DNA from: Nitrospirota bacterium
GTDB lineage: Bacteria > JACPQY01
Length of the DNA stretch: 36,650 nucleotides
Assembly (NCBI GenBank): GCA_016180645.1
Contig: JACPAV010000041.1
Coordinates: forward strand, 1 to 36,650
Direction of reading: 5' to 3'
Shown: one piece after another, positions 2,765 through 36,650 of the stretch
Position numbering within the stretch: position 1 is the first letter of the stretch
Layout of the letters: every line of letters begins with the position of its first letter
Translations under genes and position numbers: made by a program
Notes under the pieces: model-generated
Database searches by the model: none
What the model saw: only the letters and a program-made list of their open reading frames with translations
Told to the model about the DNA's origin: nothing

Positions 2765-3976
2765 ATGGCTCAAAGAGGGGTTCAATTGAGTGAAATGCCG
2801 GAGGTGAGGGATGAACTGCTGGAACGCGGTCCCTCCGCCGCCGGAACCGTCGCCCGCGCCAGGGAAACCGTCGAAATTTCCAAGTTTCTGGAAGCGTGTC
2901 TGCCGGGACGGGCGATGGGAAAGGTCCGCGACGCGTTGCAAGTGTTCTGTTCCAGTCCGCTCCTCACGAATCTGCTCGTGACGGGAAATCCAGGCACGGG
3001 CAAAAGTCACCTCGCGGGCATCGTGGCCGCCGCCTTGCGGTGGGAGACGTTGCCCCCGCCGGAGCGGGGCGCCATTTCGGGGCGGCCGATCAGCATCGAG
3101 GTCCTGAGCGAGAAGTCGGTCGGTCGCATCGAACTGCCGGGGATTCAGGACACCCTGATCGAGAGCGAGCTGTTCGGCTACCGGAGAGGTGCGTTCACGG
3201 GCGCGCACCAGGACAAGGTGGGGCTGCTGTCCACGAGCTACGAAGTGATTCTCCTGGATGAGATTGGCGACGCGAGCCCCTCCATGCAGGCCAAGCTGCT
3301 TCGCCTCGCCCAGGATCACCGCTTCCGACCGATCGGCGCCTCTATGGACACGGAGTTTACGTATGAGGGCAAGCTCGTTTTTGCCACGAACAAAGATCTG
3401 AATCGGTTGGTTCGCGAAGGACGGTTCCGGGAAGATCTGCTGCACCGGCTGAGCCTGATCCACGTGCAACTGCCGGATCTTCGAGAAGACCCGGACTATC
3501 TCCGGTTTTCCATTGAGGTCATGCTGATGAAAATTGGCCGGGAGGCCTGCAACGGGAATGGCAACGGAAACGGCCGGGCGAACGGCAATGGGAAGAACCA
3601 TGGGAACGGCGGCAACGGTGCGGAGATCGTTCTTTCACCGGAGGATGAAGCCTGGGCGATGAAGTATTCCTGGCCGGGCAATTTCAGGGAGTTGGAGGGC
3701 GCGTTCCGGAGATGGATCGCGTTGGGACATGCGCCGGGCGGACTGCGGAAATCTGCGGAGGCATCCATGTTAACGCTCCCCGGGCCGATCGCGGAGGGCG
3801 CGTCCTTCGGGGATTTCCGCAAGGCGCTCTTCGGCCGGGTGGATGAGTTCCTGTACGACGAGATTCGCAGGATCGACGAGCAGACGTTCCACCGAATCTT
3901 TCCAGAATCGAGTCGACCCTCGGCTCTGCGTGTCGTCCGAAGGGGCCTTTCACGAAGCCGCGCGGAAGAAGAGTAA
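2765..3976 (+). CDS. Sigma-54-activator-like AAA+ ATPase without receiver or HTH
   Basis: The 403-residue product has the bacterial enhancer-binding AAA+ core: Walker A GNPGTGKS (74-81), the sigma-54 contact loop GAFTGA (142-147), Walker B LLDEIGD (163-169), sensor I FATNKDL (206-212), the arginine-finger segment FREDLLHRLS (221-230) and sensor II WPGNFREL (303-310). Such proteins use ATP to remodel RNA polymerase-sigma-54. It is unusual in having only ~70 residues before Walker A (no receiver, GAF or PAS domain), no clear C-terminal Fis-type HTH, and a Gly/Asn-rich repeat tract (about 263-285) inserted before the lid. The start is uncertain: ATG at 2765 lacks a good ribosome site, and ATG at 2795 is possible. 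It could act from solution or be an ATPase re-used elsewhere. Confidence 0.75.
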   Translation: MAQRGVQLSEMPEVRDELLERGPSAAGTVARARETVEISKFLEACLPGRAMGKVRDALQVFCSSPLLTNLLVTGNPGTGKSHLAGIVAAALRWETLPPPERGAISGRPISIEVLSEKSVGRIELPGIQDTLIESELFGYRRGAFTGAHQDKVGLLSTSYEVILLDEIGDASPSMQAKLLRLAQDHRFRPIGASMDTEFTYEGKLVFATNKDLNRLVREGRFREDLLHRLSLIHVQLPDLREDPDYLRFSIEVMLMKIGREACNGNGNGNGRANGNGKNHGNGGNGAEIVLSPEDEAWAMKYSWPGNFRELEGAFRRWIALGHAPGGLRKSAEASMLTLPGPIAEGASFGDFRKALFGRVDEFLYDEIRRIDEQTFHRIFPESSRPSALRVVRRGLSRSRAEEE

Positions 3977-7000: not shown

Positions 7001-9113
7001 GTGTGACGTAGGGTCCATAGGCCGAGCAGATATTGTCCTTCAGGGCCGACGTGCGTCGCTGGAGTACGGTTTGGATGATGCCGGTCCCGATGTCCGTGCC
7101 TGTGGAAAACGTGATGGGGATGCTGAGCACTTTGTAGTATCCGTCCGTGAAACTGATCGAGCCGGCGGATGGAGGCGAAATGTCATTGGAGACCTGAGTG
7201 GCGGCGGATTGATTTCCAGCCGCATCGGTGGCCGTGAGGTAGAGGGTGCCGAACTCGTTGTCGCCGATGGGGAACTCGCTGAATGAGCCGTCGGCGGAGG
7301 CCGTGCGGGTGCGGATGAGGGTGGTGAGAAGGCCGTCGGCCCAGGCCTTCAGAATGGAGTTTCCTTCGACGGCCCCGTCCTCCCCTTGGAGCGTGTCGGT
7401 GGTTCCCGGTGCATTCCGGCCGACCAGTATTCGCTGGCGGTCCGGCGGCGCGGGGGCGAGACTGTCCACCGTCCACGAATGCGAGATGGGATCCTCCACG
7501 CGGCCGCTAGGGCCGATCGCGCGAACCTGGAGGAGGTGAGGGCCGGAGGCCAAATCTTTGACGACATAGGGCGACGTACAGGGCACGTACGGTCCGCCGT
7601 CGAGCGAACATTCGTAGCGGAGGTTCACGGTGGACGATCCGAAGGTGAACGTGACCCTGTTCGCCTGCGTGAGGGGCGGCGGTCCGATGTCGATCTTCGT
7701 GTCGAACGGCCGGTCGGAGCCCGTGGGAATGTCGGGTGTGGGTTCGCCGGTCGTCGACCACGAATACACGATGGGGAGTGAAGATGTTCCGTTGACGTCC
7801 ATCGCGCGGACGGAGAAGGCGTGGTCCCCCGGCGGAAGGTCGGAGAGCGTGTAGGGGGAAGAACAGGCGCGGAAGGGGAGCCCGTCCCACGAGCAACTCC
7901 AGAGGCAGACGGAATCGCAGGCGAAACTGAAGGTGGCCGTGGCGCCGGTTCCCGACGGGGGGGTCTGCGTGTACTGGGCAATCGGCTCGACGGTGGAAAA
8001 GATGGGGGTTGCTGTGGATGCGTGTCCAACCATGAAAAACAGCAGGGCGCCGGCGGGCCCCTCCTCACCGCGGGAATCCTTGGCGCGCACCCGGAATTCG
8101 TGGAGGCCGGGCGATAGGTCGTTCCATGCGTAGGGCGCGTCGCAGGGGGCGAACGCCTCTCCGTCTTTTGAGCATTCGAAGAGGCAGGACTGGATGCGGT
8201 CGCAGCCAAAATTCAGGAAGATGCGAGTGGAGGAGAGAGTCCTGCCGGTTGCGCAGGACTCGTCCGTCGGTGATTCACAGAGGAACGGGGTGACGAAGGG
8301 CACGGTCAACGCGTCAGGATCGACCGTCAATGGGACGGATGCGCCGGTGTTGGATTGCAGTTGCTGGGAGAGCGATTGAGCGGCTGTCTGAAGGTGAGGG
8401 CTAAGCATTGAGGCGATGTTTGAGATGCGCTCGTCCGATCCGGGTCCGGCCGGCTTCACGGGATCGAGGCCAAGCTCGGGAGTCCTCTCCCGGGCAAAGG
8501 CCTGAACGAGGTTCGGGACTCCCGAGCTGTTGTTGGATGGAAGGTTGACATTCGCCAAGACCATGGAGGCCGCGGCCAGGGGATCGGTCGAATGCATGGG
8601 AACGGCGGCGCTTGCCTCCACGAGCGGAAGGGCGGCATCGTCGGGATGCGTCAGGACGGATGAGAAGATGTGGGAGCCATCCGGCAGCGGAATGGGCAGG
8701 GGGACCCGAATCCGGAATTCGAGACTTGGGTCGGATGCCGGCACATCGGGGGAAGGAGGTTCGATTCGCAGCGGATCGAGGAACCGGCGGTGCATCGGTG
8801 CGCCAAGGATGGGTTCCGGCGCGATCATCGCACGCGCGGGTGCTCGCAGCCGGGGCACGATCTCGCCCGGCACTTGGCGGACGAGGGTCTCGCCGTCGAC
8901 GCCGAGGTCCGCCGAAGAGACACGCAGACCGAATGCCATGGCGGCCTGTTCAGGGGTGAGAGGAACAGCCAGCTCGATATTCTGTTGGGTCCACGGAAAT
9001 TGATTTTCGCAGGTACAGGAACGTTGCGCGCACGCGGGGAGAATCAGCGAGAGGGCGAAGAGACGGACGCGTTTTCCGATCTGCCCTGCATGGAATCGAC
9101 GGGGCGAATTCAT
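4011..9113 (-). CDS. Giant RCC1-repeat lipoprotein A (Ig/FN3-like modules plus 14 RCC1 repeats)
   Basis: The protein has about 1700 residues. A lipoprotein-type signal ends in LPAC (Cys28), so it is probably anchored to the outer membrane. Next come Cys-rich Ig-like units built on a pattern of ECSxDG, CxSPY, then GxHxFxVRAxD (roughly 300-530), further Ig/FN3-like modules to about 960, then 14 RCC1 repeats to the C-terminus. The repeats fall into two sets of seven split by a ~35-residue linker containing LARRVQDSTP, which suggests two seven-bladed propellers. Each blade carries two cysteines (HxCAL and CWG), probably a disulfide in the oxidising periplasm or outside. I chose ATG 9113 over an upstream in-frame ATG (9134) because AAGGAGGAG sits just before it. 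RCC1 propellers usually bind proteins; the ligand is unknown. It is a tandem paralog of the next gene. Confidence 0.85.
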   Translation of the reverse strand: MNSPRRFHAGQIGKRVRLFALSLILPACAQRSCTCENQFPWTQQNIELAVPLTPEQAAMAFGLRVSSADLGVDGETLVRQVPGEIVPRLRAPARAMIAPEPILGAPMHRRFLDPLRIEPPSPDVPASDPSLEFRIRVPLPIPLPDGSHIFSSVLTHPDDAALPLVEASAAVPMHSTDPLAAASMVLANVNLPSNNSSGVPNLVQAFARERTPELGLDPVKPAGPGSDERISNIASMLSPHLQTAAQSLSQQLQSNTGASVPLTVDPDALTVPFVTPFLCESPTDESCATGRTLSSTRIFLNFGCDRIQSCLFECSKDGEAFAPCDAPYAWNDLSPGLHEFRVRAKDSRGEEGPAGALLFFMVGHASTATPIFSTVEPIAQYTQTPPSGTGATATFSFACDSVCLWSCSWDGLPFRACSSPYTLSDLPPGDHAFSVRAMDVNGTSSLPIVYSWSTTGEPTPDIPTGSDRPFDTKIDIGPPPLTQANRVTFTFGSSTVNLRYECSLDGGPYVPCTSPYVVKDLASGPHLLQVRAIGPSGRVEDPISHSWTVDSLAPAPPDRQRILVGRNAPGTTDTLQGEDGAVEGNSILKAWADGLLTTLIRTRTASADGSFSEFPIGDNEFGTLYLTATDAAGNQSAATQVSNDISPPSAGSISFTDGYYKVLSIPITFSTGTDIGTGIIQTVLQRRTSALKDNICSAYGPYVTLAMNPRTSPYVDSSAATSTCLQYQLIVYDGAGQHSLYASASTARTDTQAPSTLPVVNDGTGPDIDIQSSSFALEANWPASIDAGSGLDTYEACVSNSSSPGVCVGIDFTFQRLGNVTSLTRTALFLTEGSRYFVHVRARDKAGNTSPITVSDGLIPDPTPPAFAGLSTIAPESTTQIDLSWSPATDNLTAQGDLRYAICRSTTADGCSVFAPTCLTDPGATAFSDQGGNCGGQSLVIGARYSYIVRAMDEAGNFDLNDVRRTASTWGTHAEAVFTHAGDHACALIPGGRVKCWGRNDRGQIGAEAATSQPMPVLVTSLSGIVSLSQGLLHTCALMPDGSVRCWGSNFFGQLGDGSTADSPTPKRVTGLSNAVGVSGGTAHSCALIAGGSVHCWGANTYGQLGDGTTVSSLTPVAVTSLSNAVSVATGSDHSCAVLSDGIMRCWGANLFGQLGDGTTVSRPVPVAVSSLVGVVAAAAGAAHTCTILADGSTKCWGLNINRQLGDGTTVNRLAPAAVSLLSNTLSVTGGTHHTCALLANGTVACWGRGAEGQLANGTGAHASSPEVISGLDRVIMIAAGSLHTCALVSGGVTKCWGDSSFGQVGDGTRLTRLGPVSVENLVGPIGILARRVQDSTPSSGALQPRPLRESLAGHLMYHSCVLLSDRSAKCWGRNQFGQLGNGSMSGKPTAESVAFLSDAVGLTGGIYHTCAAMADGTVKCWGANYSGQVGDGTGFNRLTPVAVSTLTNAVSVAGGLNHSCAVLADGTAKCWGRNYTGELGDGTTMDAATPVTVSGLTGATGLTGGSGHTCALLSDGRAQCWGFNDNFQLGDGTTVNRGSPSDVTSLSNAVSISAGLYHTCALISDGTVKCWGRGADGQLGFGESASPGIPIAASSLSGGVAVTTGDHHTCVLIADGTIRCFGLNLSGQLGDGTSESRFEPVPVASLSGVVAVTTGSDHSCAMMADGKIYCWGSNRFGQLGDGSEFDAATPVQVQNLDAP

Positions 9114-9542
9114 GGCACTCCTCCTTCGTTTCATGGCTTCCTGTTGGGAATAAGAGCAACGGATGTGCCATCACCACGGCGCCATGCGTGAAGTAATAAT
9201 CGAGTGCTAATAGTAGGTTTGCGAAGATCATTTTTGATGAAAAATATTTCAGTTGGCGCATGGTTCTGTTTGTCTTTTTCAGCGACAGATCTGTTCGCTC
9301 CCGAGCTATCGTAGATAGTGGGTTCTATTGGATAACGCGTTAGACCGGTAGGCGCAGGCTTCAGCCTGCGTCCAAAGACGCACCCATAAAGGGTGCGCCT
9401 ACCAAGAAATCCCCCTCGCGGGTAACGATGGGGGGGGTCGAACCGAGCCCCGAAGGGAGGAAGGGATCGTGTCGGACTGGGATCAATGCCGTTGAGGCCG
9501 AGCTTCGATAGCGGCAATCGAGGGCTCTTACAGGCCGGTGGG
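9114..9542. other. Intergenic region between the two RCC1 genes
   Basis: This 429-bp region lies between tandem paralogs. An AT-rich block (about 9195-9260) upstream of lipoprotein A probably carries its promoter, but I cannot fix the boxes. A GTAG...CTAC element is at 9348-9402. An imperfect hairpin at 9500-9527 (GAGCTTCGAT with ATCGAGGGCTC) follows the stop of lipoprotein B and may end that transcript. No gene is supported here. Confidence 0.6.
9348..9402. repeat. GTAG...CTAC double-hairpin element, copy 2
   Basis: GTAG is followed by CGCAGGCT/AGCCTGCG (8 bp, 2-nt loop), an 8-nt spacer, CGCACCC/GGGTGCG (7 bp, 5-nt loop), then CTAC. It is 55 bp, the same length as copy 1, although the stems differ in sequence. 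Confidence 0.85.
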
Positions 9543-35321: not shown

Positions 35322-35519
35322 ATGAATAGAATCTACCAAGGGCGCGTCACGAAAGTTGAAGTCTCCAAGGGCAAGGGTGCCGAAGGAAAGGAGCAGTGGG
35401 AGCCGTTGCCGGATTGGCCCGCCGCCCTCTGGCGGCACCACGAACTCTTCCAAGACGCGGTGAATTACTACACGCTTGCGCTCGCGGCATCTCCCGAAAC
35501 ATTTGCGGAATCAAAATAG
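35322..35519 (+). CDS. Small FQDAV-motif protein, 65 aa, possibly truncated
   Basis: The 65-residue product starts after a good ribosome site (AAGGGAG). It ends in an amphipathic segment, LWRHHELFQDAVNYYTLALAA, that has a near copy in the next gene (FQDAVCYYTILIAGL). The arrangement W-x-HH-x3-FQDAV-x-YYT-x2-L resembles the N-terminal helix of Cas12b-type nucleases (LWK-H then a VxYY core). This is a resemblance by eye, not a demonstrated homology. The end after LAASPETFAESK looks abrupt, so it may be the front of a longer gene that has been cut, or a genuine small subunit. It is 10 nt before the next gene. Confidence 0.5.
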   Translation: MNRIYQGRVTKVEVSKGKGAEGKEQWEPLPDWPAALWRHHELFQDAVNYYTLALAASPETFAESK

Positions 35520-35529
35520 AGGAACACTG

Positions 35530-36585
35530 ATGAACGAACTTTATCGCACCTACGAAGTTCTAATAGAGGAAACGGTTCACCCCGACAATCCGAAGCGGAA
35601 AACCAGCAACAAGCCCGGCGTGTGGGATCAACAGAAATACGATGCCCTCCGCGACACGAACGCAGTGTTTCAGGATGCCGTGTGCTACTACACCATCTTG
35701 ATCGCGGGCTTGGGCGGCGACCTGAATCCACTTTGGGGCGAAATGTGCGAGCGGGAAGAGCATCCCGGCAATGATGTGACAAAGGTTCTGCAACGATTGG
35801 CCGCGAATTACCCGGGGCTGCCGCACGCGCAATCAGTGCGGGAGCTTGTGAGCGGTGCTCTTACTCAAGGCAAGTCAGAGACCGAGCGGAAACGAACCTA
35901 CGAGATACTTGAGAGTCAACTCGCGGGCGAAGACACCGAGTTGGATATCGAGAACCTCACAATGTTCGCCCACGACAACGGCCTGAGACTGTGCAGCCCA
36001 ACAAGCAAGAGGAAGATGCCTGGCTCGGCTTTGCTGAACAGGCTGTACTGGATGATACACGGTGCGCCACAGTCTCATGCGGACGTAGCGGCAATGGTGA
36101 CTCTGATTGACGAGTTCCGTAATTCAGTCGAGTTGCCTTCCCAAGACCGCGTGAAGGAACACTATCAAGCAGCGTTCACTGTTGCCAAATGCGGTCGAGC
36201 GAAGAAGTTGCGGCCTTTGATCGAAGCGCAACTCGCCGATTTGCAGGCGCATATTCAGGAGGAGGCTCATACGGACAGACGGTTTGTCTGGTTTCATCGT
36301 TCCGGCCCGGTCAATCCAATGGCGCACCTCGTGGCCCGCTTGCTCTGGTTCCAGAACGATGAGGTGCTCGCAAGGATCGCCCTTGAAGACTTGGTTGGTT
36401 TCATCAGCAACCCCGGTAACAAGATCGCCAAGCCTCTTGGCGACGAGGGCGGGATGCCAAGCAAATTCCCTTATTTCACGCAATGGCTTGGCATCAAGTT
36501 TGAATCACCTGCGTTCAGAGAGAAGTTCGATGACGCCGTGTTGAAGATGGCTGAAGTTACCCCCGTTTTTTGGACAGGTGGTTAA
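35530..36585 (+). CDS. FQDAV-motif protein, 351 aa, unrecognised
   Basis: The protein begins MNELYRTYEVLIEETV and shares with its 65-aa neighbour the block NAVFQDAVCYYTILIAG (near residues 44-60). The remainder is mostly helical and soluble: a Trp- and Glu-rich part, TERKRTYEILESQLAGEDTE, and a C-terminal half with VWFHRSGPVNPMAHLVARLLW and MPSKFPYFTQWLG. I see no nuclease or ATPase motif, no signal peptide and no membrane segment. The start ATG at 35530 is preceded by GAGGAA. I do not recognise the family. Position in one strand-run with DUF3800, the 65-aa gene and the gene at 36633 suggests a shared role, possibly a multi-gene defence or RNA-guided complex. That is inference. Confidence 0.6.
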   Translation: MNELYRTYEVLIEETVHPDNPKRKTSNKPGVWDQQKYDALRDTNAVFQDAVCYYTILIAGLGGDLNPLWGEMCEREEHPGNDVTKVLQRLAANYPGLPHAQSVRELVSGALTQGKSETERKRTYEILESQLAGEDTELDIENLTMFAHDNGLRLCSPTSKRKMPGSALLNRLYWMIHGAPQSHADVAAMVTLIDEFRNSVELPSQDRVKEHYQAAFTVAKCGRAKKLRPLIEAQLADLQAHIQEEAHTDRRFVWFHRSGPVNPMAHLVARLLWFQNDEVLARIALEDLVGFISNPGNKIAKPLGDEGGMPSKFPYFTQWLGIKFESPAFREKFDDAVLKMAEVTPVFWTGG

Positions 36586-36632
36586 GCCAAGATTTTGGCA
36601 GAATCGAGGTTCAAGAAACGGAAGGAGAGATC

Positions 36633-36650
36633 ATGGGACAGAAGCGGAAA
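36633..36650 (+). CDS. Start of a further gene, cut by the window edge
   Basis: ATG at 36633 follows a strong ribosome site (GGAAGGAG, 5 nt before). Only MGQKRK is visible. It is 47 nt downstream of the FQDAV gene stop in the same direction and so is probably the next member of that cluster. Confidence 0.5.

Follow-up and report, generated by a model that had tools for sequence, protein, structure and literature searches.

The locus at the right end of the window

The window, the whole 36,650-nucleotide stretch that was analyzed, is the entire contig C41 of its assembly. Its right end carries a DUF3800 gene followed in a row by a 65-amino-acid (65-aa) open reading frame (ORF) and a 351-aa ORF, an arrangement that the original prediction had described correctly, including the FQDAVxYYT motif common to the two ORFs (Table 1). 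Only 10 nt separate the stop of the 65-aa ORF from the start of the 351-aa ORF, and the contig ends inside an insertion sequence (IS).

Table 1. Features of the locus on the window (C41) and on contig C38 (locus L006)
Feature	Contig	Positions	Strand	Remarks
DUF3800 gene	C41	34422..35180	+	Pfam DUF3800 E 7e-16; probable CTG start behind AAGGAG
65-aa ORF	C41	35322..35519	+	GGGAG upstream; motif FQDAVNYYT
351-aa ORF	C41	35530..36585	+	motif FQDAVCYYT
Large YRxYEV-type cas12b, first 340 codons + 2 nt	C41	35530..36551	+	continues in phase at C38:102-3588
Target duplication GGC (3 bp)	C41	36549..36551	.	second copy C38:99-101
IS left end and start of its transposase ORF (MGQKRK...)	C41	36552..36650	+	contig ends inside IS
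IS right end	C38	1-98
Rest of cas12b	C38	102-3588		in phase with window part; NCBIfam Cas12b 398 bits
cas4-cas1 fusion	C38	4377-6203		Cas4g/Cas1g 632 bits
cas2	C38	6207-6497		Cas2 E 3.5e-12
CRISPR array	C38	6768-6927		two full 36-nt repeats and one shortened, two spacers

The 65-aa ORF matches Cas12b profiles (PADLOC, 36 bits, E 7e-10; NCBIfam, 25 bits, E 5e-6) over their first ~55 residues, which bears out the likeness to Cas12b that had been seen in its N-terminal layout. It carries two canonical N-terminal blocks, MNRIYQGRVxxVE and LWRHHELFQDAVNYYTLALAA, and matches the canonical Cas12b N-terminus, MNRIYQGRV...LWxHHxLFQDAVNYY. Its AlphaFold model (pLDDT 76) has two strands and a helix and gave no significant fold match. 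The 351-aa ORF alone had no significant match in Pfam, NCBIfam, PADLOC, or PDB; the part of it that is host sequence is 26 to 32% identical to the Cas12b N-termini of five related loci (L015-L019). The model of this 340-aa fragment was poor (pLDDT 41) and was left out as evidence. The motif common to the two ORFs reflects homology rather than chance, given the profile matches and given that dozens of Cas12b loci carry one or the other of its versions in the corresponding position.

When the Cas12b family model was run against the contigs of this genome, it matched in two places, the window (28 bits, model positions 1-56) and the start of C38 (model positions 282-1217, at a score far above the cutoff of 150). 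The cas genes and the CRISPR array that the original prediction looked for past the contig end are carried by C38. Read across the two contigs, the order would be the DUF3800 gene, the 65-aa stub, the IS-interrupted cas12b, the cas4-cas1 fusion, cas2, and the two-spacer CRISPR array. The locus is a type V-B CRISPR-Cas locus, a damaged member with its effector broken by an IS (at window 36552/C38:98) rather than a working system. Interference has probably been lost in the sequenced genome, and the system looks disabled because the effector is broken and the array holds two spacers.

With type V-B Cas12b systems (C2c1; the Alicyclobacillus enzyme, PDB 5wqe/5u30, and the 1,496-aa C2c1, PDB 9kln), the locus has in common a RuvC-type effector, a Cas4-Cas1 fusion, Cas2, an array of 36-nt repeats, and RuvC motifs that align with those of the solved enzymes (VDLG and LEDL with 5wqe, NADENAA with 9kln). 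Unlike those enzymes, the window Cas12b is ~1,500 aa long with a divergent N-terminal part starting YRxYEV, and its gene is interrupted by an IS and preceded by what appears to be the stub of another Cas12b. Cas12b3 (V-B3) is an inactivated type V-B variant, its inactivation arising from changed RuvC residues (PMC12669027). Both it and the window locus are type V-B and judged inactive, but the window gene retains its RuvC motifs and is instead interrupted by an IS. A search for the anti-repeat of a tracrRNA returned only an 11-nt match at C38:7217, near chance, and one spacer had no match among phages.

The third CRISPR repeat runs into a 73-nt palindromic repeat element (C38:6905-7000), which has a second copy at 7674-7746 and apparently shortened the array. 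A gene for a PIN-domain (VapC-like) toxin (Pfam PIN) lies directly behind the array at C38:7256-7663. No DUF3800 gene turned up in the related loci that were tested (L014-L019 and L026), so the gene is probably outside the system, and it was rejected as a component.

The insertion sequence and the interrupted effector

C30 and C23 both begin with the last 99 bp of C41 (100% identity), and the right end of the element, at the start of C38, is common to C14 and C6. Since the ends recur in these two pairs of contigs, three copies of one IS are present in the genome. The assembled parts of the IS are its ends, which are imperfect inverted repeats (TGAAGTTACCCCC/GGAGCTTACCCCC). The triplets flanking the copies pair uniquely (C41/C38, GGC; C30/C14, GAG; C23/C6, GAA). 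The element is thus an insertion sequence with a 3-bp target duplication, putatively IS3-like, as its ends, copies, and duplications fit. The identical copies elsewhere in the genome suggest that the insertion is recent. The window contains another dispersed repeat, positions 9324-9392 being 88% identical to a stretch of C30.

Because the sequence from 36552 on is common to C30 and C23, the last 11 codons of the 351-aa ORF and the MGQKRK... ORF belong to the IS. The 351-aa gene therefore stands as an ORF, but its host sequence runs only from 35530 to 36551; likewise, the next gene, which had been noted for its strong ribosome site, is there but is the start of the transposase. The break in cas12b falls behind the second nucleotide of codon 341, the frame resumes in the same phase at position 102 of C38, and uninterrupted the gene would have ~1,502 codons. 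In the alignment with relatives, the C38 part takes up the protein where the window part leaves off; the open frame starts directly behind the IS and goes on at the homologous position, with FEDVFKYK beside AAEDVFKYK of L015 and L016. This continuity is a matter of coordinate arithmetic (frame phase and duplications), the sequences of C41 and C38 having been left unjoined.

These results bear on the proposal that the pair of ORFs forms a split or novel two-part complex. A two-subunit effector would account for two adjoining Cas12b-like ORFs, but the second of these runs into IS DNA and continues on C38, and in relatives (L016-L019) cas12b is one uninterrupted ORF of 1,566 to 1,694 aa. With the break coinciding with the IS end and the frame going on in phase, both ORFs are accounted for without a split complex; a split effector was rejected, and we give a two-subunit effector almost no credence. 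The original prediction as a whole was partly supported: the likeness to Cas12b and the suggestion that the 65-aa gene may represent a larger effector in truncated form were right, and the two-part complex was not supported. The apparently novel gene pair is explained as IS damage next to the probable scar of another effector, as argued below.

Effector exchange among related type V-B loci

Single-protein scans with the Cas12b body returned nothing from the genome or viral collections; it took an alignment as the query, with which 85,000 genomes yielded 80 Cas12b loci. The effector of most verrucomicrobial and related loci starts directly with MNRIYQGRV...LWxHHxLFQDAVNYY. The N-terminus of the canonical verrucomicrobial enzymes (L020-L047 and G499) is what the 65-aa ORF encodes; in those enzymes it is fused to a protein of 1,300 to 1,700 aa, whereas in the window it stands alone. 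The window effector belongs to a separate Cas12b clade of nine loci (support, 100/100 in the Cas12b tree) whose members start YRxYEV and have FQDAVCYY further along. The analysis thereby draws attention to a clade that has been little described, whose Cas12b proteins are very large (about 1,500 to 1,700 aa) and have a divergent N-terminus. In one of its loci a short tandem duplication (L015:5339-5446) disrupts the cas12b frame, which may be an assembly error, and in another a gene for an AbiEii-type toxin (Pfam; L019:4408-5996) and a probable antitoxin gene lie upstream of the stub and cas12b, a defense-island setting. Viruses had no match to the start motif and phages none to the Cas12b body. 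No convincing stub match was obtained from plasmids, among which only an Alicyclobacillus dauci plasmid has a distant Cas12b.

A stand-alone ORF beginning MNRIYQGRV precedes the effector in the window and in five other YRxYEV loci (L015, L018, L019, L166 of genome G450, and L168 of G433), that is, in six of the eight that could be scored. L014 could not be scored and was excluded from the eight, and L016 and L017 are without an intact adjacent stub. Among canonical loci, a stub or part of one was present in 5 of 37, a difference in frequency for which a hand-computed exact test gave a value of about 0.001. The stub ORFs end at or just past the FQDAVNYY helix. Read-through of the stop codon, which would join stub and effector, was discarded as a candidate: L015 and L018 have the two in one frame, but in the window and L019 the frames differ.

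The FQDAVxYYT motif common to two adjacent ORFs might also be taken as a sign that part of the present cas12b was duplicated in tandem to give the 65-aa ORF. However, the stub is mostly 50 to 76% identical to the canonical Cas12b of other genomes, compared with 33% over 45 aa to its neighbor, and the stub of G442 matches a gene of another genome at 91 to 96% of nucleotides, so that we regard a tandem duplication as very unlikely.

That last match supplies a direct comparison of a locus before and after exchange. When the G442 stub is aligned with the 5' end of the intact cas12b of G499, identity is 96% over 85 nt and 91% over 133 nt, and the cas4-cas1-cas2 genes of the two genomes are 85% identical; the effector bodies have no nucleotide similarity past the start. 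In this pair (L167 at position 3438 and L177) the identity begins exactly at the ATG, with nothing similar upstream, as if two modules met at the start codon. In a second pair, L015 and G717 have the same layout at 82% and 77%, and G717 retains a frameshifted canonical gene. The Cas4-Cas1 tree conflicts with the Cas12b tree: YRxYEV loci are scattered among canonical ones, and well-supported branches force at least four changes. The stubs of G433 and G442 have a common inserted repeat (90.6% over 53 nt) despite different effector types.

The before/after pairs and the scattered Cas4-Cas1 tree together indicate that effectors move separately from the adaptation genes, leaving the old 5' end in place, and they suggest that these loci gain and lose CRISPR nucleases by exchange. 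In relatives the effector gene is exchanged while cas4-cas1-cas2 remains, and an incoming cas12b lands behind the first ~50 to 75 codons of the old one; we infer the same for the window. The start of the old gene survives as a short ORF that reaches to the FQDAVNYY helix or slightly beyond. The 65-aa ORF of the window is most likely the scar of a displaced canonical Cas12b. Against this stands the fact that no genome was found with the window locus in its state before the swap, the one other genome of the phylum that was compared having no cas12b; replacement in the window is drawn by analogy because there is no close relative to compare. The account as a whole, an IS-broken type V-B cas12b preceded by an effector-replacement scar, we consider likely.

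Type V-B loci thus provide direct before/after evidence of exchanging the nuclease while keeping the adaptation genes, and effector exchange leaves a recognizable 5' scar. Such scars can be searched for and dated, and effector turnover in class 2 CRISPR systems is therefore measurable. The open-access literature yielded no paper describing such stubs or scars, which supports novelty only weakly, most subscription journals lying outside that literature; the 2025 classification (PMC12669027) mentions V-B3, and such scars were not found in the parts of it that were searched.

Relic or functional small protein

In the window stub every conserved position is intact, and amino-acid-changing differences are not in excess (ratio, 0.29; the median for canonical N-termini is about 0.32), as would also be expected of a useful protein; this counts against the scar reading. 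Across three tree-independent pairs, 40 of 66 differences between stubs fall at third codon positions (P, 5e-6). The stubs of the window, L015, L019, and G450 are as constrained as real N-termini; that of L018 and the solitary copies are decaying, with ratios of 0.41 to 0.55. A tree of the short N-termini gives no resolved grouping. With only 10 nt between stub and effector, the stub may still serve as a translated leader, and it is probably still translated, coupled by position to cas12b.

It is possible, therefore, to see in the 65-aa ORF a selected small protein that is kept beside the large YRxYEV-type Cas12b while bodies are exchanged around it, acting as a partner in trans or a regulator. 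As a functional mini-protein it would consist of the Cas12b WED strand and first REC helix on their own, and it might partner the effector in assembly or regulation or act as a decoy that captures inhibitors binding to the Cas12b N-terminus. The occurrence of the stub in most scorable loci of a deep clade, the third-position excess, and the constraint on the four copies named above speak for such a function. However, the intact adjacent copy is missing in two loci of the clade, other copies are decaying, the stubs are as like the canonical N-termini of relatives as they are like each other, and direct before/after pairs exist. Because of that equal resemblance, the constraint may date from full-length genes; it fits either a recent origin from such genes or a retained function, and the decay of the L018 and solitary copies favors the relic reading overall. 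We consider the selected small protein unlikely, and the same holds for the mini-protein form.

Copies of the stub sequence also lie before or after ORF6N, NYN-like, DUF1186, and SANT-like repeat genes, as might be expected if the upstream copies were DNA or RNA regulatory elements, such as guide-RNA targets for autoregulation, rather than coding remnants. The third-position excess points instead to coding constraint. A comparison of arrays with the 5' regions of six loci gave no match of at least 13 nt, on which ground guide-RNA autoregulation of the 5' region was rejected; we hold regulatory elements to be extremely improbable, and a displaced Cas12b start remains our preferred reading of the stub.

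Solitary, decayed fragments of Cas12b N-termini occur away from any cas12b in Verrucomicrobiota genomes (L106 on G004:C47, L107 on G004:C44, L122 in G005, L115 in G237, and L172 in G619). In L171 (G480), L169 (G638), L166 (G450), L170 (G598), and L107 (G004), cas12b 5' stubs alternate with other genes, namely DUF1186/SEC-C, NYN-like, ORF6N, and SANT-like repeat ORFs, as though insertions had struck the same site again and again. The first cas12b codons of L166 and L170 are in frame with an ORF6N gene.
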